From Ignavibacteria bacterium (lineage in GTDB: Bacteria > Bacteroidota > Ignavibacteria > Tepidaquicellales > Tepidaquicellaceae), in assembly GCA_036262055.1 (NCBI GenBank), contig DATAJP010000003.1, positions 744,001-808,000 of the forward strand: a stretch of 64,000 bases of DNA, written 5' to 3'. This document shows, piece by piece, positions 14,319 through 28,141 of this stretch. Below the pieces are notes generated by a model, which saw only the letters and a list, made by a program, of their open reading frames with translations, searched no databases and was not told where the DNA came from. Each line of letters opens with the position of its first letter. Within the stretch, counting starts at the first letter, position 1. The position numbers and the translations under genes were made by a program.

Positions 14319-14639
14319 TTATTTGCTATACTTACCTAAGTGTTTCAGGTATTTAATTTCTTTGTTTTGATTTGTTTCAAGCTCGTAATAATAGTCCCCC
14401 GGCGGTAATGTGTTGAGGTCAATTCTCTTTGAATGAAATCCTGTCTTCAAATGTTTATTGTTATAAACCATCATTGCAAGCTGTCCTGATAAGTTGAATA
14501 TGTTCAGCTTTACGTCGCTGTCATAAGGCAGATTAAAATCTATGCAGCAGTTAACGCCTTTGCCTTTACCCAGTGCATTGAGATTATAATACTGAACCAT
14601 TCTCAGGAAAAAATTTGTCTTGTTTAGTGTTGCTTCCAT
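14319..14639 (-). CDS. Small protein resembling an isolated T9SS C-terminal sorting domain
   Basis: A 106-residue protein. From about residue 35 onward it follows the T9SS type A tail pattern: FNLP, then VKLNIFNLSGQLAMMVYN, a turn with KTGFHSKRIDLNTLPPGDYYYEL, and a final basic strand. It has no signal peptide, no passenger domain and no N-Y-P-N-P-F-N motif. It is either a relic of a longer secreted protein, a stand-alone domain, or an exported protein whose N-terminus is outside this frame. Its coding status is moderately secure because the frame is open and patterned. Confidence 0.5.
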   Translation of the reverse strand: MEATLNKTNFFLRMVQYYNLNALGKGKGVNCCIDFNLPYDSDVKLNIFNLSGQLAMMVYNNKHLKTGFHSKRIDLNTLPPGDYYYELETNQNKEIKYLKHLGKYSK

Positions 14640-18364: not shown

Positions 18365-20956
18365 ATGAAGGTAGCTTCATATCTAATTTTATTTACATTT
18401 CTTTTATTACTTCACAACACAAGTCAGGGACAGGTCAGGATTTTTGAACGTAACACGAACGATACGATTGAAAATAAGGGGCTTTTTCTTGAAAGCAGTC
18501 AGAGGACTTTAATAAATCTGAACGGACAGTGGGAGCTTTCATTTAATGAGGGACATAATTTTGCAAAGGTAATCGTTCCGCTTGCGTATGATTTCACCGG
18601 TACGACGATTTTCAAGAAAAGATTTGCAGTGAGTGATGAGCTTGTGAGCAAGTATAGTTTTATTCTTGTAGCTGAGGGGATAAATTACGAGTCGGAGATT
18701 TCGATTAACGGTGTTTTCGTTACGAAGCATATTGGCGGGTCGTCATCGATTATAAATCTCATCGAGGAGAATATAATTTCAAAAGATAACACGATTGAAA
18801 TTAAGGTTAATAATTGTCTGAGTTATTCGAATACCATTCCCCTATCAAATCAGGTTAACTATTCTAAAAATTACGGAGGAATTAATCGCGATATTTATCT
18901 GATTGCGGTTCCGAAAATTTTTGTATCTGATGTTCAGTTTTTGACCTCATACGAAAGCGCATCGAACGTGAAGCTGACGAACAAGATAAACATCAAGGCA
19001 ACAGAGCTGACTAAGATATATTCCGGCAATGAATTCAGCGTGAGAACGTTTGTTATCCGCGAACAGATTACGGATTCTTCAAACTCGGTAGATACGGTTG
19101 GCAAAAGCGATGAGATTAAGTTTAATCTCGAGAATTTTAAGTCGCAGACATTTGAGAACAGCGTGAATATTCCAAATCCTGCTTACTGGAGCCCGCAGAA
19201 CCCGAATTTGTATAAAATTCGCACGGTGATTAGTGATTCAGAAGGTAATGTGATTGATGAATATAATGTGAATTACGGTTTCAGGGATGTGAAGTTCACG
19301 AGCAATGCTGTTATTGTAAATGGTACTGAAATGATTCTGAAGGGCATAAATTATTACGAGGATTCATATAAATTTGCATCGGCATTGAGCTATGGTGAGG
19401 TTGAGGCAGACATAAAAAACATTAAAGCCCTTGGCTGTAACGTAATCAGAGTTCCGGGAAAGAGCGCGCATCCTTATATAATTAGTCTTGCGAATAAATA
19501 CGGTTTGTTTGTTATGATGGAGATTCCGTTCAATGAGGTTCCGTATGAGATTATGAAGGATGATGATTACAGATTTATTGTAAGTGAATATATTGACGAA
19601 GTTATTAATGTGAACAGAAATAATCCGAGCATTTTAATGTGGGGCATAGGGAATGATTTTGATGTTACGCAGGAAATTTCTTCAAATTATGTGAGAGACT
19701 TCAAAGAGCTTGCCGGGAAGCTTGACAGCAGAAAGGTTTATTTCACGACAAGAAATTTATCTGAAATAAAATGCATAGATGAAGCTGATGTGGTTTGCCT
19801 GAATCTTGAACATTACTCTTTTGATTACATTAAAAAATTTCTTGATGATGCGAATAATGTTTCATTGGCAAAGAAATTTCAGAACAAAACAGTTTTCATT
19901 TCGGGATACGGAAGAAGAATAAATAATAACAACCGGAACGGGTACAGCGACATTCATTCGGTGGAATATCAGACAAAATTTTTAATGGATGTTTATAGTA
20001 TGGTGAAAGCAAAGTTTCCCGGTTCGATTATTTCAAGCTATGCCGACTGGACTGCTGACAGACCATTGAATTTCCCTTTAAATGAGAATTATTTTATTAA
20101 TACCGACGGTATTTATACGCAAAAACGCGAGCCAAAGCAGGCGCAGCAATATGTGCAGAGAATGCTAAACAATCAGGAATCGCCCAAGATTCTCGAAGGC
20201 AATTCTTCCCAAAGCTCATCGAATGTTTTTATAATTGTCGGACTGGCGTTTAACATTATTTTTTTATTCCTGGTTACGAACTTGAAACGTTTAAAAGAAA
20301 GTTTCTGGAAAGGTCTTTACAGACCTAAGAACTTTTTTCTTTTTGCAAGCGAACAGTTCTTAATACCTACTTTTTTGAATGTAGTTTTAGCGATTTTTAT
20401 TTCTGCAGGCATTGCGTTATTCTGGGCATCAGTATTTAATTTATATAAAGAGTCGAATGTGTTCGACATGCTGCTGGCGAATATATTTTCTTCGGACACT
20501 TTAAAAACTTTCTTTTCAACGCTTTCGAACAGCCCTGAGATTTCGATTCCGGTTTTAACGGTAATAAATTTTTTGCTGATATTTTTTACAGCAATAATAA
20601 TTTTTGTTATTTCATTGTTCACGAGAAGAGGTGCGAATTTCAAAAATGTTTATAAAGTTGCAGTCTGGTCGGCTCTGCCGTTCATTCTTTTTCTGCCCAT
20701 AGGAACAATAATTTATAAACTGGGGCTTGCAAATACGGAGTATATTTTTCTCTCAATAATTTTGTTTCTTTTGATTCATCTGATATATCTTTACCGATTG
20801 ATTAACGGGGCGAGGATAGTTTTGGAGTTCTCGATTTTGAGGGCATTTTCTTATGCGGTCATAATAATTTTGATATTATATGGCGGATTTATTTCTTATT
20901 TTTACTACGGGCGTAATACGTTCTATCTAATCAACTTAATTTCGAGTTATAATTAA
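18365..20956 (+). CDS. GH2-like protein, probably non-catalytic, with C-terminal membrane domain
   Basis: An 863-residue protein. After a signal peptide (1-22) come a GH2 sugar-binding domain (about 45-185), an immunoglobulin-like domain (about 186-308) and a TIM-barrel domain (about 310-600). In active GH2 enzymes the acid/base is the Glu of an Asn-Glu pair; here the matching site is GIGNDFD (Asn430-Asp431). The nucleophile is normally Glu in a TEYG-like motif; here it is ISGYGR (Gly514). Both catalytic glutamates therefore seem absent. From about 620 on there are some six hydrophobic helices resembling a Yip1-type domain. It is six bases upstream of smc. A sugar-sensing or polysaccharide-binding role is possible. 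Confidence 0.7.
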   Translation: MKVASYLILFTFLLLLHNTSQGQVRIFERNTNDTIENKGLFLESSQRTLINLNGQWELSFNEGHNFAKVIVPLAYDFTGTTIFKKRFAVSDELVSKYSFILVAEGINYESEISINGVFVTKHIGGSSSIINLIEENIISKDNTIEIKVNNCLSYSNTIPLSNQVNYSKNYGGINRDIYLIAVPKIFVSDVQFLTSYESASNVKLTNKINIKATELTKIYSGNEFSVRTFVIREQITDSSNSVDTVGKSDEIKFNLENFKSQTFENSVNIPNPAYWSPQNPNLYKIRTVISDSEGNVIDEYNVNYGFRDVKFTSNAVIVNGTEMILKGINYYEDSYKFASALSYGEVEADIKNIKALGCNVIRVPGKSAHPYIISLANKYGLFVMMEIPFNEVPYEIMKDDDYRFIVSEYIDEVINVNRNNPSILMWGIGNDFDVTQEISSNYVRDFKELAGKLDSRKVYFTTRNLSEIKCIDEADVVCLNLEHYSFDYIKKFLDDANNVSLAKKFQNKTVFISGYGRRINNNNRNGYSDIHSVEYQTKFLMDVYSMVKAKFPGSIISSYADWTADRPLNFPLNENYFINTDGIYTQKREPKQAQQYVQRMLNNQESPKILEGNSSQSSSNVFIIVGLAFNIIFLFLVTNLKRLKESFWKGLYRPKNFFLFASEQFLIPTFLNVVLAIFISAGIALFWASVFNLYKESNVFDMLLANIFSSDTLKTFFSTLSNSPEISIPVLTVINFLLIFFTAIIIFVISLFTRRGANFKNVYKVAVWSALPFILFLPIGTIIYKLGLANTEYIFLSIILFLLIHLIYLYRLINGARIVLEFSILRAFSYAVIIILILYGGFISYFYYGRNTFYLINLISSYN

Positions 20957-20961
20957 ATTAT

Positions 20962-23900
20962 TTGCATCTAAAAAAAATCGACATATTCGGTTTTAAGTCC
21001 TTTGCAGACAAGACTACTATGGAATTCAGTAAAGGTGTGTCTGCGATTGTCGGACCAAATGGTTCCGGAAAATCGAACATAGTTGATGCACTCAGATGGG
21101 TTTTGGGCGAGCAGGGCGACAGAGCACTGCGAAGCGAAAAACGTGAGGACGTTGTTTTCAACGGAACGCGAAACAGAAAACCTTTGAGTGTTGCCGAAGT
21201 TTCCCTCACAATTGTTAACGACAAAAATATTTTACCGACGGAATTTGCCGAAGTGCAAATTGCCCGCAGATTTTTCAGAAGCGGTGAGACAGAATATTAT
21301 CTCAACGGAACTAAGGTTCGTCTTAAAGACATAAAGCATCTTTTTGCAGGAACAGGAATTGGTCCGGATGCGTATTCGGTTATTGAGTTGAAGATGACTG
21401 AGGTTATTCTTTCTTCCGTAAAGAATGAAAGAAGAAAGATGTTCGAAGAAGCTTCAGGTATTGTGACATACAAGCAAAACCGAGATGCAACTCTTCTAAG
21501 ATTGAACTCCGTTCATGAAACGCTCTCAAGAGTCAGCGATATAATCCGCGAGAAGCAACGAAATGTGAACTCGCTTGAAAGACAGGTGAAACGAAACGAA
21601 GAAGCTAAACGAGTAAGTGAGGAATTAAGACAGCTTGAACTTTTAGTTTTTAATTTTGATTACCATAAGCTAAATAGCGAGATTGAATATATTAAAGCAC
21701 ATGAGAAAGAAAATATCGAACTCAAGGAAAAACTTGAAACAGAAATTAAAGCGAACGATGCGTTAATAGATGAGCTGCGAAGCAATATTCAGGAAAGCGA
21801 GGCTTCCCTATCCGAGATGACGAACTTACGAGAGGAAAGAAGAAAAGAGATTGAGTTTCTTGAACGAGAAAACATAAAGTTAAATGAAAGATTAAATTCG
21901 ACGAATGAAAATATAAAGAGATTAACAGATGAAATTTTAAACACAAAGGCAAGCATAAGCAAAAACGAAGCGAGAAAAATAGAAAAGACTGAAAAAGTAA
22001 ATATTCTGAAAGAAGCTTTTCAGGTTTCCGAACACGCTTTACGCGAGAAAAAAGAAAAAGTTGATTCACTGCGAATTGTTATTAATGAAAATAAAGCCAA
22101 AGTTTCCTCAGTGACTTCTCAGCTTAAAGAAGTTAATGCGTCTATACACTCAAAGCAAGATGAACACAACAAGCTTAATCTGCGTCTCGAAAATAATTTT
22201 GAAAAGCTTACGAAACTAACGAACAGCAATGAAGAAAATATTTTACAGATTAAGAGCTTTGAAGAAGAGAAAAGCATTTTGACAAATAAGCTTTCAAAAG
22301 AAAAAGAATCACTGAAGAATTTAGAATTAAGACAGCGTGATATGGAGATTCAGAAAGCGGAACTTGAGACCGAAAAGATGAAACTTGAGGAAGAGCTGAA
22401 GAATGAGAACCTTGAATATAATAAATTAAAAACAAAGATAGATTATTTTTCCGGATTATCCGAATCGCTTGAAGATTACTCCGAAGGGATTAAATATCTT
22501 ACAAAAGAATTAGAGCACCCGAATATTTCTACAATTGCGAATTTAATCGAAGTTGATGACAAATATAGAATTGCTGTCGAGACTGCGTTAGGCGAGGTGG
22601 CAAACTATCTTGTTGTGGATGATTCCCGCGACATTAATAAATTGATTAACCTTCTTGTAAATAACCGCAAGGGAAAGATTACATTCATATTAAACGACAA
22701 AATAAATTATAATAATTTTTATTATACGGAATATTTTGGTGACCCTGAATTTATTAAAGATAAGGGAATTATCGGATTTGCGGATAAGTTTGTTAAATGT
22801 GCCGATAAAAAGCATGAGCTTTTGATAAAATACATTCTTGATGAATACATAATTGTAGAAAGTCTTGATATCGGGATGAAGTATGCAAAGGATAATTATT
22901 ATAAATTTATTACTCTTGACGGCGATATAATTACGGACAGTGTGATAAGAGCGGGAAGCGAGACGAATCCTGACATAATCCGTCTCGGACGAGACAAGAG
23001 CATTGAAAATATGCAAACACGTCTCGATACTATAAAACAAAAAATGGAAAACGCAGAAGAGTCAGTTGCACAGATAAATTCGAAGATTGATGAATTGAAA
23101 CTCGATGACATTGCGATGAATATTTCAGCATATAATAAGAGCGTTGACCAGCTATCCAACGAAATGGCGCAGCTGAACTTTAAAATCGATGAGCTTAACA
23201 AAACCATAACCAAGAATGAGGATGATTACAAGCAGATTTCAGGTGAGAACAAACATCTGCAGCAGCAGGTAACCGGTGTTTTAACCGAGTTAAATGAATC
23301 TAATGATGCGCATAAAATTCTCGAAGAAAAAGCTGTGAAATTAGCTGAGGAAGTCAACGACATACAAAATGTTTATAACGATGCGACAAATGATTATAAT
23401 GAATACAATTTAAGTGTAATCGGTTCAAAGAAAGAACTTGAGTATGAAGAAGAAAATTTAATAAGAATTACGTCAACGATTGAGAACCAGACCGAACTTA
23501 TTGCAAAAAATGAGAGCGCAATGGAAAGCGGAATGCAGGAACTTGCCGAATTAAACCAGACAATAAAGAGTAATACCGATAAAATTAAAGAACTGAATTC
23601 TGATTTTGAAATTGTGGAGAAAGATTACCGCAAACTGAAATCAGAGTATGAAGCAAAGCGTGAGGAAATGAATGTTACGGACATTCAGCAACGCGACCGA
23701 AGAACAAAGTTTGATAAAGTTTCATTTTATCTTATTGATTCAAATACAAAGATTGCGACAAACAAAGCAAATGCATCTTCCCTGTCGAGATTTATTCACG
23801 GAAAATATGAAGTTGACCTGCCGCTTTCAGATGAAATCATTAATAATGAAATAAAGAATAATGAATTTTTAGAAATTCTGAATGAAGATATTGATATAGA

Positions 23901-24579
23901 GAAATTCAAGAAGCGAATTGATAACCTGACAGAGACGTTAAAGAAGCTTGGCGGATATCAGCAGTTGTTGTTCGAAGATTTTGATAAAGAAAAAGCAGAA
24001 TTGGAAAACTTGATTACACAGAAGAATGATTTGCTTGATTCTGAGAAAGACATTCTGAAAGCAATTGAAAAGATAAATCAAGAAGCAAGAGAAAGATTTT
24101 TAATGACGTTTGAAAAAATCCGTGAGAATTTCATAATGATATTTAAAGAACTGTTTCAGGAAGGTGATGAGGCGGATTTGAAACTTGTATATGAAATGGA
24201 TGAAGACGGAAAGCTGGAGAGTGACCCGCTTGAAGCAAAAATCGAAATCAGCGCTAAGCCGAGAGGTAAAAGACCTACATCGATTGAACTTTTATCGGGC
24301 GGAGAGAAAACTCTTACGGCGATTGCATTACTCTTTGCAATATATCTTGTGAAACCGTCACCGTTCTGCGTACTTGATGAGGTAGATGCACCGCTTGACC
24401 CGAATAATTTGGGAAGGTTCAACAACATGATAAGAAGATTTTCGGAGAATACTCAGTTTATATTGATTACGCACAATGAGAGAACCATGGAAACCGTTGA
24501 CAGGTTATATGGTGTTACGATGCAGGAAGCCGGCGTTACCACCATCGTCGAAACTAAATTCAAAAATAAAGTTGCCTAA
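20962..24579 (+). CDS. smc: Chromosome partition protein SMC
   Basis: A 1205-residue ATPase that folds and segregates the chromosome as a dimer with ScpAB. The TTG start gives the family-typical MHLKKIDIFGFKSFADK. The Walker A motif is GPNGSGKSN (about 32-40). Two long coiled coils flank a hinge at about 500-680, containing ALGEVANYLVVDD and the GDIITDSVIRAGS segment. The C-terminus has the signature LLSGGEKTLTA and Walker B FCVLDEVDAPLD. All motifs are intact. No scpA or scpB is nearby in this window. Confidence 0.95.
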   Translation: MHLKKIDIFGFKSFADKTTMEFSKGVSAIVGPNGSGKSNIVDALRWVLGEQGDRALRSEKREDVVFNGTRNRKPLSVAEVSLTIVNDKNILPTEFAEVQIARRFFRSGETEYYLNGTKVRLKDIKHLFAGTGIGPDAYSVIELKMTEVILSSVKNERRKMFEEASGIVTYKQNRDATLLRLNSVHETLSRVSDIIREKQRNVNSLERQVKRNEEAKRVSEELRQLELLVFNFDYHKLNSEIEYIKAHEKENIELKEKLETEIKANDALIDELRSNIQESEASLSEMTNLREERRKEIEFLERENIKLNERLNSTNENIKRLTDEILNTKASISKNEARKIEKTEKVNILKEAFQVSEHALREKKEKVDSLRIVINENKAKVSSVTSQLKEVNASIHSKQDEHNKLNLRLENNFEKLTKLTNSNEENILQIKSFEEEKSILTNKLSKEKESLKNLELRQRDMEIQKAELETEKMKLEEELKNENLEYNKLKTKIDYFSGLSESLEDYSEGIKYLTKELEHPNISTIANLIEVDDKYRIAVETALGEVANYLVVDDSRDINKLINLLVNNRKGKITFILNDKINYNNFYYTEYFGDPEFIKDKGIIGFADKFVKCADKKHELLIKYILDEYIIVESLDIGMKYAKDNYYKFITLDGDIITDSVIRAGSETNPDIIRLGRDKSIENMQTRLDTIKQKMENAEESVAQINSKIDELKLDDIAMNISAYNKSVDQLSNEMAQLNFKIDELNKTITKNEDDYKQISGENKHLQQQVTGVLTELNESNDAHKILEEKAVKLAEEVNDIQNVYNDATNDYNEYNLSVIGSKKELEYEEENLIRITSTIENQTELIAKNESAMESGMQELAELNQTIKSNTDKIKELNSDFEIVEKDYRKLKSEYEAKREEMNVTDIQQRDRRTKFDKVSFYLIDSNTKIATNKANASSLSRFIHGKYEVDLPLSDEIINNEIKNNEFLEILNEDIDIEKFKKRIDNLTETLKKLGGYQQLLFEDFDKEKAELENLITQKNDLLDSEKDILKAIEKINQEARERFLMTFEKIRENFIMIFKELFQEGDEADLKLVYEMDEDGKLESDPLEAKIEISAKPRGKRPTSIELLSGGEKTLTAIALLFAIYLVKPSPFCVLDEVDAPLDPNNLGRFNNMIRRFSENTQFILITHNERTMETVDRLYGVTMQEAGVTTIVETKFKNKVA

Positions 24580-24602: not shown

Positions 24603-25664
24603 ATGGAAACCAAAAAAAAAGATTTCTTAGTACGTTTAATTAATGAGCCGGGTCCTTCCGGTTTTGAAGAGAAAGTCCAGAAAATCTGGAAGACTGAAGT
24701 AAGCAGTTTCTGCAGGAACATCAAAGGAGATGTTCACGGAAATCTCACCGCTACGCTTAACCCTGACGAAGAATTTTCTATAATGATTGTGGGACATTCC
24801 GATGAAATCGGACTGGTGATAAACTATGTCGATGACAATGGATTTATATATTTTTACAGCATTGGCGGAGTTGACGCGAGCATTCTCGGTTCACAACGTG
24901 CGCGAATAATCACAAAGAACGGTATCATTGAAGGAGTTTTCGGTCAGAAGTCTTTGCATCAGGAAGACGGCGGGAAAAGAAGTGTTCCAAAAAGATACGA
25001 AGTATTTATTGATATAGGCGCAAAGAGCAAAGCTGAAGTTTTGAAGCAAGTTACAATCGGCGACCCGGTGATTTTTGGAAATGATTACCGTGATTTAAGA
25101 AACAATCTTGCTGCATCAAGATGCTTCGATAACAGGATAGGAATTTTTATCGTTGCCGAAACATTACGCAAGCTCTCGAATAAAAAATTTAAGACAAAAG
25201 TTTTCGGAGTTTCTTCCGTTCAGGAAGAAATAAATACGGGCGGCGCAGGAAATGCGGCATACTATCTAAATCCGACTATGGCAATTGCAATTGATGTTAT
25301 GCCTGCAACGGATTATCCGGGAGTTTCACAGACACAATTCGGTGATTGCAAGCTCGGTAGCGGTCCTGTAATAAGAAGAGGCGTAAGGACAAACAAAAGA
25401 ATTGCCGATAAGATGCTTGAGGTTGCGAAGAAGAAGAAATATAAGTATCAGATTGATATGGATAACGGAAGATTTGGAACCGATTCTGATTATATTGCTC
25501 CAATAAGAAGTGGAATACCTGTCGGCGGAATCGAGGTTGCAACGAGATACCTGCATTCATGTGAAGAAGTGCTATCGCTTAAGGATTTGGATGAAAGCGT
25601 AAATTATATGACCGATTTGATTCTTGAAATAGATAAAGATAAAAATTTCCTGAGAAAGGAATAA
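24603..25664 (+). CDS. M42-family metallo-aminopeptidase
   Basis: A 353-residue cytoplasmic peptidase of the M42 (PepA/FrvX/tetrahedral aminopeptidase) family. Metal ligands appear in MIVGHSDEIGLVI (His), RCFDNRIG (Asp) and SVQEEINTGGA (the Glu-Glu pair), with a C-terminal HSCEE histidine. These enzymes trim N-terminal residues from short peptides; some relatives were misnamed endoglucanases. It follows smc by 23 bases and may start the long co-oriented run that ends at about 35 kb. Confidence 0.85.
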   Translation: METKKKDFLVRLINEPGPSGFEEKVQKIWKTEVSSFCRNIKGDVHGNLTATLNPDEEFSIMIVGHSDEIGLVINYVDDNGFIYFYSIGGVDASILGSQRARIITKNGIIEGVFGQKSLHQEDGGKRSVPKRYEVFIDIGAKSKAEVLKQVTIGDPVIFGNDYRDLRNNLAASRCFDNRIGIFIVAETLRKLSNKKFKTKVFGVSSVQEEINTGGAGNAAYYLNPTMAIAIDVMPATDYPGVSQTQFGDCKLGSGPVIRRGVRTNKRIADKMLEVAKKKKYKYQIDMDNGRFGTDSDYIAPIRSGIPVGGIEVATRYLHSCEEVLSLKDLDESVNYMTDLILEIDKDKNFLRKE

Positions 25665-25671
25665 TGAAAGA

Positions 25672-26418
25672 GTGAAAAAAGAAAAACCGATATTGAAAAT
25701 TTTCTGCGACTTTGACGGAACGATTGCAAAAAATGACGTATGCATAAATTCATTCGATAATTTTATAGAGGATAAAAAAGCACATGTTGAAATAATCGAA
25801 AAATATTGTAATTACGAATATTCATCAAGAGAGGCAAATCTGAAAGAGCTTGAGCTGATTGATAATTTTGATTTCAAAAAATTCAATGAACACCTTGATA
25901 TCGAACCACTTGATGAGACGTTTAAAAATTTTGTTCGGTACTGTAAAGATAATCAACACGAACTGATAATAGTAAGCGAAGGATATGATTACTACATAGA
26001 GCATATTATGAAGCGTGAAAAAATTGACTTAAAATTTTATGCGAATAAGCTCACGACTTATGTAGGCAAAGACGGAAAGCTGAAAGTCACCTGCGAGTTC
26101 CCGAACAGCGAGGAGATGTGCTCGTGGTGCGGGACATCGAAACGAAATGTTATTATAAACAACACGAACGACTTATACAACGAAGTTTCAGTTTTTATTG
26201 GAGATGGAGCTTCAGATGCGTGCGCGGTTAATTATGCGGATATTGTTTTTGCCAAAGGACGGCTTGCATCATTCTGCTGGAAGAACAATATAACTTATCA
26301 CGAGTTTAATAATTTTGACGACATTTTAAAAAAACTCGATAAGCTGAAATCGGAAAATAAAATCAAGCACAGACAAACTGCAAAAACACACAGAAAGGAT
26401 GTACTACTTGGCGGATGA
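25672..26418 (+). CDS. HAD-superfamily (MtnX-like, HAD-IB) phosphatase
   Basis: A 248-residue enzyme with the HAD nucleophile motif FCDFDGTIAKND (about 11-22), the second motif IIVSEGYD, and the third IFIGDGASDACAV. The cap region holds the Cys pair CSWCG. It is closest to the MtnX-like family, whose best-known member dephosphorylates a methionine-salvage intermediate, but other phosphoserine-phosphatase-like roles are equally possible. The GTG start at 25672 is required because the nearby ATG is out of frame. The stop overlaps the next start. Confidence 0.75.
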   Translation: MKKEKPILKIFCDFDGTIAKNDVCINSFDNFIEDKKAHVEIIEKYCNYEYSSREANLKELELIDNFDFKKFNEHLDIEPLDETFKNFVRYCKDNQHELIIVSEGYDYYIEHIMKREKIDLKFYANKLTTYVGKDGKLKVTCEFPNSEEMCSWCGTSKRNVIINNTNDLYNEVSVFIGDGASDACAVNYADIVFAKGRLASFCWKNNITYHEFNNFDDILKKLDKLKSENKIKHRQTAKTHRKDVLLGG

Positions 26419-27017
26419 GCTTTTTCAAAAAAACAGGAAATTTTTTATTTAAATACCGCAGTTACACTCCCCTCCCGTTTGTAATCTTAATGTTAGTTTT
26501 TATTAACCCGACTTTTTTAAGTATAATCATTGGGTTCGTTATTGCTCTTTGCGGTGAAGCAATCAGGATATGGGCAGTTTCTTATGCGGGAAGCGAAACA
26601 CGGACAACATCAGGAGTGGGAGGAACTTATTTAGTTACACAAGGTCCATATAGCATAACGCGTAATCCTTTATACATAGGGAATATTCTGATTTACACCG
26701 GCATCGGTGTAATGAGCAAAGCATTATTTCCATATCTTCAGATTGCAGGATTGATTTTTTTTACATTTCAATATTACTGCATCATCCTCAATGAAGAAGA
26801 ATATCTTCAAAAAACTTTCAGGGATAAATTTCATATTTATACCGTAACGGTCAACAGATTTTTTCCGAAGTTCAAATTACTTCCGGAAGAAATAAAATCC
26901 GATTTACCGTTAGATGTTGCGGCGGGTTTAAAGTCGGAGCGCAGAAGCCTTCAGGCATTTTTAATTTTATCATCAATCATAATCATATATTTTCTTTTTA
27001 AAACTTTTTCTTCATAA
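26415..27017 (+). CDS. Isoprenylcysteine carboxyl methyltransferase-like membrane protein
   Basis: A 200-residue membrane protein with five or so helices. The motif GPYSITRNPLYIGNILIYTGIG (about 92-113) and the later NEEEYLQKTFRDKFHIY are the SAM- and lipid-binding signature of the ICMT/PEMT group. Bacterial members methylate lipids or small membrane substrates; the substrate is not evident here. The position before lpxB suggests a role in envelope lipid modification, which is inference. Confidence 0.75.
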   Translation: MSFFKKTGNFLFKYRSYTPLPFVILMLVFINPTFLSIIIGFVIALCGEAIRIWAVSYAGSETRTTSGVGGTYLVTQGPYSITRNPLYIGNILIYTGIGVMSKALFPYLQIAGLIFFTFQYYCIILNEEEYLQKTFRDKFHIYTVTVNRFFPKFKLLPEEIKSDLPLDVAAGLKSERRSLQAFLILSSIIIIYFLFKTFSS

Positions 27018-28141
27018 TGTCCGGTAAAGTATTCATAATTACGGGTGAATCTTCGGGTGAAATGTACGGAGCTGCCTTAATTAATGAGCTAAAAAAAATA
27101 AAACCGAATATTAAAGTTTCGGGTATCGGAGGAAAAAATCTTGAAGCAGAAGGAGCAGAATTGCTTCATCATTATAACGAAGTAAACTTTATCGGATTTT
27201 CTGCGGTTGTAAAAAATATTTTTAAGATTAAAAAAATTTTGAAAGACTGCGTCGATCATGTTTTAAAAGAACATCCGAGAGTAGTTATACTTGTTGACTT
27301 TCCGGGGTTCAATCTTAAGTTCGCATCAACCATAAGACAATTTTATAAAGGGAAAATAATTTATTACATATCGCCTCAGCTGTGGGCGTGGCATAAAGAA
27401 CGGGTAAAATCGATTAAAGAAAATATCGATGAAATGCTTGTAATATTTCCCTTTGAAGTTGATTTTTATGCTAAAGAAGGTGTGCAGGCAAAATTTGTCG
27501 GGCATCCGCTGAAGGAAAAAACGGATGTATTTTTGAAAAACAGAACTAAGAAAACTAATTCATATAAAATTGTCACGATTATGCCGGGCAGCAGAAAGGA
27601 GGAAGTTGAACGAATCCTTCCCACGCTTCTTATTGCTTCACGTGAAATAAAGAAAAATATTAACATAACTATTAATATTTTATGTTCGGGAAACATTGAG
27701 AAAAGTTTTTATCAAAAATTTTTACAGGGCTATAATGTGAACTTAATTTACGATGACGGGACAAAGCAGATTGAGTTTGAAACAATATATAACTCCGATT
27801 TATTGTTCACAAAATCCGGAACTTCGACGGTAGAGTGTGCTTTGCTTGGATCACCTTTCTGCATTGTGTACAGAACCGGTTCAATGAATTATATTATCGG
27901 AAAAAATTTAATTAAGGTCGATAAAGTTGGCATGGTGAACATTCTTGCAAACAAGGAGATTGTAAAAGAGTTTATACAGAATGATTTTACGGTAGAAAAC
28001 CTGGTTAAAGAAGGGATAAAATTACTTTCAGATGAAAATTATATTGCTGAAATGAAAAATAGTTTTGAGATTGTTAATAACATACTTGGCAAAGAACATG
28101 CTTCCCAAAATGCTGCAAAAATTATAAGCCAATATCTTTGA
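27017..28141 (+). CDS. lpxB: Lipid-A-disaccharide synthase
   Basis: A GT19 glycosyltransferase of 374 residues that joins UDP-diacylglucosamine to lipid X, forming the disaccharide core of lipid A at the inner membrane. Visible motifs are ITGESSGEMYGA near the N-terminus, ILVDFPGFNLKFA, YYISPQLWAWHKERVKSIKE, MPGSRKEEVERILP and the C-terminal KSGTSTVECALLGSPFCIVY. The start ATG overlaps the preceding stop. It is followed by a DUF374 acyltransferase and lpxK, which gives an lpxB-lpxK lipid A cluster. Confidence 0.95.
   Translation: MSGKVFIITGESSGEMYGAALINELKKIKPNIKVSGIGGKNLEAEGAELLHHYNEVNFIGFSAVVKNIFKIKKILKDCVDHVLKEHPRVVILVDFPGFNLKFASTIRQFYKGKIIYYISPQLWAWHKERVKSIKENIDEMLVIFPFEVDFYAKEGVQAKFVGHPLKEKTDVFLKNRTKKTNSYKIVTIMPGSRKEEVERILPTLLIASREIKKNINITINILCSGNIEKSFYQKFLQGYNVNLIYDDGTKQIEFETIYNSDLLFTKSGTSTVECALLGSPFCIVYRTGSMNYIIGKNLIKVDKVGMVNILANKEIVKEFIQNDFTVENLVKEGIKLLSDENYIAEMKNSFEIVNNILGKEHASQNAAKIISQYL

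Follow-up and report, generated by a model that had tools for sequence, protein, structure and literature searches.

A GH2-like ectodomain lacking its catalytic glutamates, fused to a predicted membrane domain and encoded beside smc in Ignavibacteria

We showed that the gene directly upstream of smc in the window (the whole stretch of 64,000 nucleotides of Ignavibacteria DNA that was analysed) encodes a GH2-like protein in which, judging from alignments, both catalytic glutamates have been replaced. On balance, we consider it probable that this is an inner-membrane, Yip1-like protein made together with smc, whose ectodomain, descended from a catalytic ancestor, has turned into a non-catalytic binding or scaffold module. 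In the mechanism that we propose, a Yip1-like membrane domain would carry a GH2 ectodomain in the periplasm, and the protein would be produced together with smc; several lineages have independently lost the acid/base and the nucleophile glutamate, yet purifying selection has continued to act on the fold. The ectodomain may hold a glycan, or a glycan-bearing envelope partner, in the old active-site cleft and act through the membrane domain; the glycan is a guess made from the fold. The job performed at the cell envelope is probably a non-cutting one.

A membrane-fused and serially inactivated GH2 appears to be novel relative to the literature searched, since no earlier publication on a GH2-membrane family was found in the open-licence literature, as judged from listings and the openings of abstracts.

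Architecture and predicted topology

The features of the gene and its conserved neighbour are as follows.

18365..20956, + strand: whole gene, GH2-like ectodomain and six-helix membrane domain (ORF of 863 aa with ATG start; Pfam, AlphaFold2, structural alignment)
18365..18430, + strand: putative signal peptide, residues 1-22 (read by eye; helix 2-16 in the model)
18503..18913, + strand: GH2 N-terminal jelly-roll domain, residues 47-183 (Pfam PF02837, 27.6 bits, cut-off 28; covered by the fold match)
18920..19285, + strand: GH2 middle Ig-like domain, residues 186-307 (Pfam PF00703, 48.6 bits, cut-off 23)
19292..20167, + strand: GH2 TIM barrel, residues 310-601, catalytically degenerate (Pfam PF02836, 76.2 bits, cut-off 21; Foldseek and VIA-align to glucuronidases)
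19652..19657, + strand: acid/base site, Asn430-Asp431, which is Asn-Glu in active GH2 enzymes (alignments)
19901..19912, + strand: nucleophile site, Ser513-Gly514-Tyr515-Gly516, which is (Thr/Ser)-Glu-Tyr-Gly in active GH2 enzymes (alignments)
20216..20911, + strand: predicted six-helix membrane domain, residues 618-849, Yip1-like (models; weak Yip1 match)
20285..20368, + strand: basic stretch, residues 641-668, conserved, following membrane helix 1; its positive charges predict a cytoplasmic location (alignment, conservation)
20962..24579, + strand: smc, the conserved downstream neighbour (ORF, adjacency counts)

The GH2 fold claimed by the original prediction was confirmed, with both the barrel and the middle domain above their Pfam cut-offs, the N-terminal domain 0.4 bits short, and the predicted three-domain fold lying on glucuronidases across residues ~37-609 with Z of 33-37. 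The AlphaFold2 model of the window protein (30-row alignment) has a mean pLDDT of 86.5 and a pTM of 0.83. Foldseek placed the ectodomain on beta-glucuronidases (8dhe, E 1.7e-39), and VIA-align 2 gave Z 36.9 against 6ncw (535 residues, rmsd 2.5), 35.1 against human GUSB (3hn3) and 33.8 against E. coli GUS (3k46). The three domains and the barrel are thus shared with GH2 beta-glucuronidases and beta-galacturonidases (3k46, 3hn3, C. perfringens 4jkm and E. tayi 6ncw; Z 33.4-36.9, rmsd 2.1-2.5, 520-535 residues), from which the window protein differs in the replacement of both catalytic glutamates and in its carboxy-terminal six-helix membrane domain.

The fusion to about six hydrophobic helices was likewise recovered in the AlphaFold2 model, which contains six of membrane length (618-639, 669-693, 724-751, 771-789, 792-820 and 824-849). 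Compared alone with solved folds, the membrane domain gave a best Foldseek E of 1.3 and a best VIA Z of 5.5, values that speak neither for nor against a common fold. Like Yip1 domain proteins (PF04893), it is made of several membrane helices; the window protein itself scores 21.0 bits at residues 675-844, under the Pfam cut-off of 28.6, while three of four stand-alone homologues exceed it (29.7, 31.2 and 32.8) and the fourth does not (26.6). Unlike Yip1 domain proteins, the window protein bears a large, presumably periplasmic, ectodomain.

The basic stretch at residues 641-668 has the consensus RRFRE...RAL.RP.NFFADIRDQR in the family alignment. If the signal peptide is cleaved, this loop and two others (752-770 and 811-823) would all be cytoplasmic, which would place the GH2 part in the periplasm; the loops were read by eye. 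The predicted topology therefore fits a protein of the inner membrane, its ectodomain in the periplasm, better than one exposed on the cell surface. Of the two locations in the earlier proposal, surface or periplasmic, the periplasmic one is thus favoured.

Loss of the catalytic glutamates

When the protein was aligned with solved GH2 enzymes, both as a single sequence and as a profile, Asn430-Asp431 paired with the Asn-Glu of the acid/base site, and Ser513-Gly514-Tyr515-Gly516 with the (Thr/Ser)-Glu-Tyr-Gly of the nucleophile site. The glutamate that follows strand 4 in GH2 enzymes is thus Asp431 in the window protein, and that of strand 7 is Gly514. The two sites occupy the expected places in the AlphaFold2 model, with 430-431 directly after strand 423-428 and 513-516 at the end of strand 509-514. 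The original prediction had suggested this double loss, to be abandoned if another glutamate took a catalytic position; none was found on either site in these alignments. Among 30 rows of the window's order, Asn430 is invariant, position 431 is D in 22, N in 6 and E in 2, and position 514 is S in 10, N in 8, G in 5, Y in 5, F in 1 and A in 1. The lack of a fixed substitute at either position is not the pattern expected had catalysis merely moved.

These data bear on the idea that the protein is still an enzyme, with Asp431 as the acid/base and some other carboxylate (e.g. Glu386, Glu391 or Glu482) as the nucleophile. Although Glu386 is almost invariant in a separate 30-row alignment and Asp is the commonest residue at 431, strand 7 aligns without any Glu, 431 is Asn in a fifth of the rows, and 514 varies among six residues. 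Moreover, the EIP stretch containing Glu386 also occurs in relatives having both catalytic glutamates, and its conservation is therefore probably structural. We regard continued catalysis by the window protein as very unlikely.

The alignment was extended to 108 members of the family, a table from which L050, truncated at its contig end, and the duplicates L051-L054 are excluded. Neither glutamate is present in 82 of them, only that of the acid/base in 9, only the nucleophile in 11, and both in 6; four rows of family f12, gapped at the acid/base column, were scored as lacking that residue. All members with both residues belong to family f49 (L155 and L175-L179, 6/6 fetched; a match in a seventh genome is a fragment and falls outside this count). 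They have the same GH2-Yip1 architecture as the window protein but keep both glutamates, and the three rows printed also retain KGISRHEDH, GHYP, GNEFD and (T/S)EYG, the HYP stretch included. From these motifs, the f49 proteins are probably active enzymes, and they offer a natural control with an intact-looking active site. Their retention of both residues is one point that, on the aligned sequences, speaks against the non-catalytic reading.

In one common alignment, 12/12 unfused GH2s of the phylum (hand-picked from match lists) carry Glu at both columns, and in a 90-row ectodomain tree they fall outside the fusion clade with a support of 100. This validates the alignment columns and points to an ancestor with catalytic activity, which most likely was a GH2 enzyme tethered to the membrane. 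In a tree of 81 rows (27 of the 108, mostly near-duplicates, were omitted by hand), f49 is nested inside the fusion family, and the presence of the glutamates is scattered, requiring at least 8 and 7 state changes at the two sites or, without any regain, 21 and 18 losses. The exact counts are soft, because the trees come from quick searches and carry no support values other than SH-aLRT. Nevertheless, the aligned residues indicate that the catalytic glutamates were lost separately in several lineages, that of the window included. Regain of the f49 active site by an ectodomain swap is unsupported, as the f49 ectodomains nest within the fusion clade and away from the 12 unfused GH2s; in this 90-row tree (30 of the 108 omitted, three of them because they aligned poorly or had long branches, and the 12 unfused GH2s added) several forks within the fusion clade are weak.

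In lineages without the Glu pair, dN/dS was 0.024-0.141 for the ectodomain (computable in 7 of 19 pairs) and 0.029-0.116 for the membrane domain (computable in 4), values which are rough because dS approaches saturation in the majority of pairs. Ectodomains without the Glu pair are therefore still under purifying selection. Taken together with the loss of the glutamates in the window's lineage, this suggests that the ectodomain works without catalysis in the window's species. A decaying pseudogene was rejected on the strength of the open frame, the deep conservation and the low dN/dS. In f49 the ectodomain is the tighter part (0.037-0.066 versus 0.094-0.134 for the membrane domain in six pairs computable for both). 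Of the four other pairs with both values (ectodomain/membrane 0.029/0.029, 0.045/0.031, 0.141/0.035 and 0.102/0.116), three have a membrane domain at least as constrained as the ectodomain, and one has a membrane domain that is slightly less so. These few pairs fit a shift of constraint off the ectodomain after catalysis was lost.

Within the window's order, conservation is higher in the loops of the cleft, a hand choice made after the model was seen, than in the remaining barrel (0.69 vs 0.58, p 2.8e-4). The sister clade without the Glu pair shows no such excess (0.61 vs 0.60, p 0.45), and a shared ligand pocket is therefore not a feature of the family as a whole.

The family thus offers a natural series from enzyme to non-enzyme, with both-intact, one-lost, both-lost, shortened and ectodomain-lost forms of one membrane-tethered GH2, most of which sit in the same genomic place. 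Other pseudoenzymes of glycosidase descent are the chitinase-like proteins, which belong to GH18; they are mammalian chitinase relatives, homologous to the window protein neither in family nor in setting. Two of them, BRP-39 and Ym1, are described as glycosidase relatives without activity (PMC4195342).

Distribution of the family and linkage to smc

Homologues were detected in 58/59 relatives searched, and the fusion protein, at E up to 1e-25, in 132 of the 149 genomes sampled from the class Ignavibacteria; since most matches span nearly the whole protein, the fusion must be old. An alignment-based search of genome contigs returned 33 named loci, of which 25 were titled Ignavibacteria, Ignavibacteriae or Ignavibacteriales, 6 Bacteroidetes or Bacteroidota, and 2 Chlorobi or Chlorobiota; a single-sequence search of genome contigs gave no relative. 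Viral origin was considered and set aside after one scan of viral contigs, in which no relative appeared. Within the window's genome, a search to E 0.001 found no second homologue of the protein. A membrane-domain profile run against 247 genomes of the phylum revealed the full fusion outside the class in families f20 (4 genomes), f23 (2) and f38 (5), together with weak matches in f39 (2) and f48 (1, in a locus containing a run of N). The two f39 proteins (L170 and L172, 520 and 536 aa) seem by eye to consist of part of the barrel and the membrane domain, and do not adjoin smc. We conclude that this is an old, vertically inherited family of Ignavibacteria and some related families, generally present in one copy per genome.

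The original prediction placed the gene six bases ahead of smc and called for a search for further GH2-membrane fusions at that site. The spacing was essentially right: the stop codon ends at 20956 and smc starts with a TTG at 20962, leaving five bases in between. The search was productive: in 103 of the 132 class genomes the gene sits immediately upstream of smc, in the same orientation, and all 11 full-length members outside the class adjoin smc, while the surrounding genes differ. By "upstream" we mean the same strand and -300 to 1500 bases between match ends, the largest distance found being 782; for genes split across contigs one hand-chosen fragment was used (in G306 and G343 not the best-scoring one). 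In the window's family the distance is 3-61 bases in 12/12 genomes. The pairing was seen in 44/48 flanked class loci, where the commonest gene following smc keeps its place in 26/44 and the commonest clustered gene preceding the GH2 gene in 10/48. The gene is presumably co-transcribed with smc.

Adjacency is not universal. Of the 29 class genomes without it, 24 seem real (f5 4/5, f7 5/5, f14 9/9, f15 2/2, f17 3/3 and f53 1/1), and five (G050, G322, G341, G357 and G360) were not judgeable, each involving a fragment or a match near a contig end. Family f49 adjoins smc in 5/7 genomes, the other two being fragments or contig ends that could not be judged.

The ectodomain can also be missing. In all seven genomes examined of genus g28 (family f11; L044, L131-L133 and L136-L138), the ORF directly upstream of smc consists of the membrane domain alone (254-368 aa between stops); the GH2 part had no match in the stretches fetched, nor did the whole protein in these genomes at E up to 1e-25. 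Three further f11 genomes (G257, G319 and G323) have neither the fusion nor the stand-alone form beside smc; this survey covered f11 apart from G329, G335 and G342. As families outside the class carry the full fusion, f11 has probably lost the ectodomain. The membrane domain looks like the core of the protein, and the former enzyme like its dispensable part.

Such linkage invites the thought that the protein is a membrane tether or regulator of SMC, whose basic cytoplasmic loop would bind or regulate SMC-ScpAB while the ectodomain senses or grips cell-wall glycan. The close same-strand spacing, the persistence of the pair amid differing flanks, and the stand-alone membrane domain that stays beside smc after loss of the GH2 part all favour action on SMC, as does the basic loop, whose conservation exceeds that of the remaining membrane domain in all four groups computed. 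Nevertheless, we consider this unlikely: the gene is unlinked in the relocated families f7, f14, f15, f17 and f53 and in most f5 genomes, three f11 genomes have neither form at the site, and many SMC-bearing families lack the protein, smc (E up to 1e-40) being present in 209/247 phylum genomes and the membrane domain in only 73. SMC is, moreover, not short of a kleisin, as a separate ScpA was found in 29/30 genomes, the window's own included. Replacement of the kleisin by the window protein, among whose Pfam matches the ScpA family is absent, was rejected for the same reason.

Distinctly unlikely, in our judgement, is an envelope link for SMC, by which the Yip1-like protein, translated with smc, would anchor or regulate SMC-ScpAB through the basic loop while the periplasmic ex-glycosidase reads a cell-wall or envelope sugar. 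Were it true, chromosome organisation would follow envelope growth, and the ectodomain could be dropped while the membrane-SMC part stayed. An unstudied membrane protein of most of a class, kept beside smc over deep divergence, makes a possible link between envelope and chromosome organisation testable.

Downstream of smc, the window (24603-28141, + strand) encodes an M42-type peptidase, an HAD phosphatase, a methyltransferase-like protein and lpxB (names assigned by eye), in an order largely kept in the class.

It is a real possibility, though one we rate as somewhat less than even, that an envelope protein without any dealings with SMC is simply held in a growth-linked operon by inertia and translational coupling. 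Families in which the gene has moved elsewhere still retain it, and the HAD phosphatase, methyltransferase-like and lpxB genes are also often conserved in the class. Outside the class, however, the neighbours vary and yet the pair is kept throughout; inertia alone should not single out these two genes.

Relocated copies and sprA

In the 81-row tree, the unlinked families f7, f14, f15, f17 and f53 form one clade, which is consistent with a single relocation. At L040 (f7) and at L041 and L096 (both f14), the gene's neighbour is a divergently oriented sprA/sov rather than smc, and that at L096 matches TIGR04189 (T9SS translocon sprA/sov) with 876 bits.

One may ask whether the protein is an accessory of the type IX secretion system. 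The divergent arrangement with sprA was found in one f7 genome (G048) and in 4/4 f14 genomes checked (G058, G111, G138 and G153), a broken copy lies near sprA in an f15 genome, and SprA is nearly universal, being present in 60/61 of the class sample. On the other side, the gene does not adjoin sprA in the window's genome or in any of the four unlinked f5 genomes, and its neighbours in L149 (another f7 genome) and L146 (f53) include no ORF of SprA size. SprA also occurs in f11 genomes, where the GH2 part is missing, and the unlinked families other than f5, as one clade, may owe their position to a single relocation. We therefore hold a role in type IX secretion to be very unlikely, and continue to prefer the envelope module with a non-catalytic ectodomain.

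The f15 copy (G095, C1:1994223-1994925), in which the membrane-domain match is split over two frames ~2.3 kb from sprA, is either a broken gene or an assembly error. Outside the window, at C3:1148008-1149713 of its genome (G000), two adjacent ORFs (347 and 348 aa) each score 84 bits against a short segment of the SprA model, the full SprA gene being separate. Finally, the window contains at 14319-14639 (- strand) a 106-aa ORF, which we take to resemble a T9SS carboxy-terminal sorting domain.
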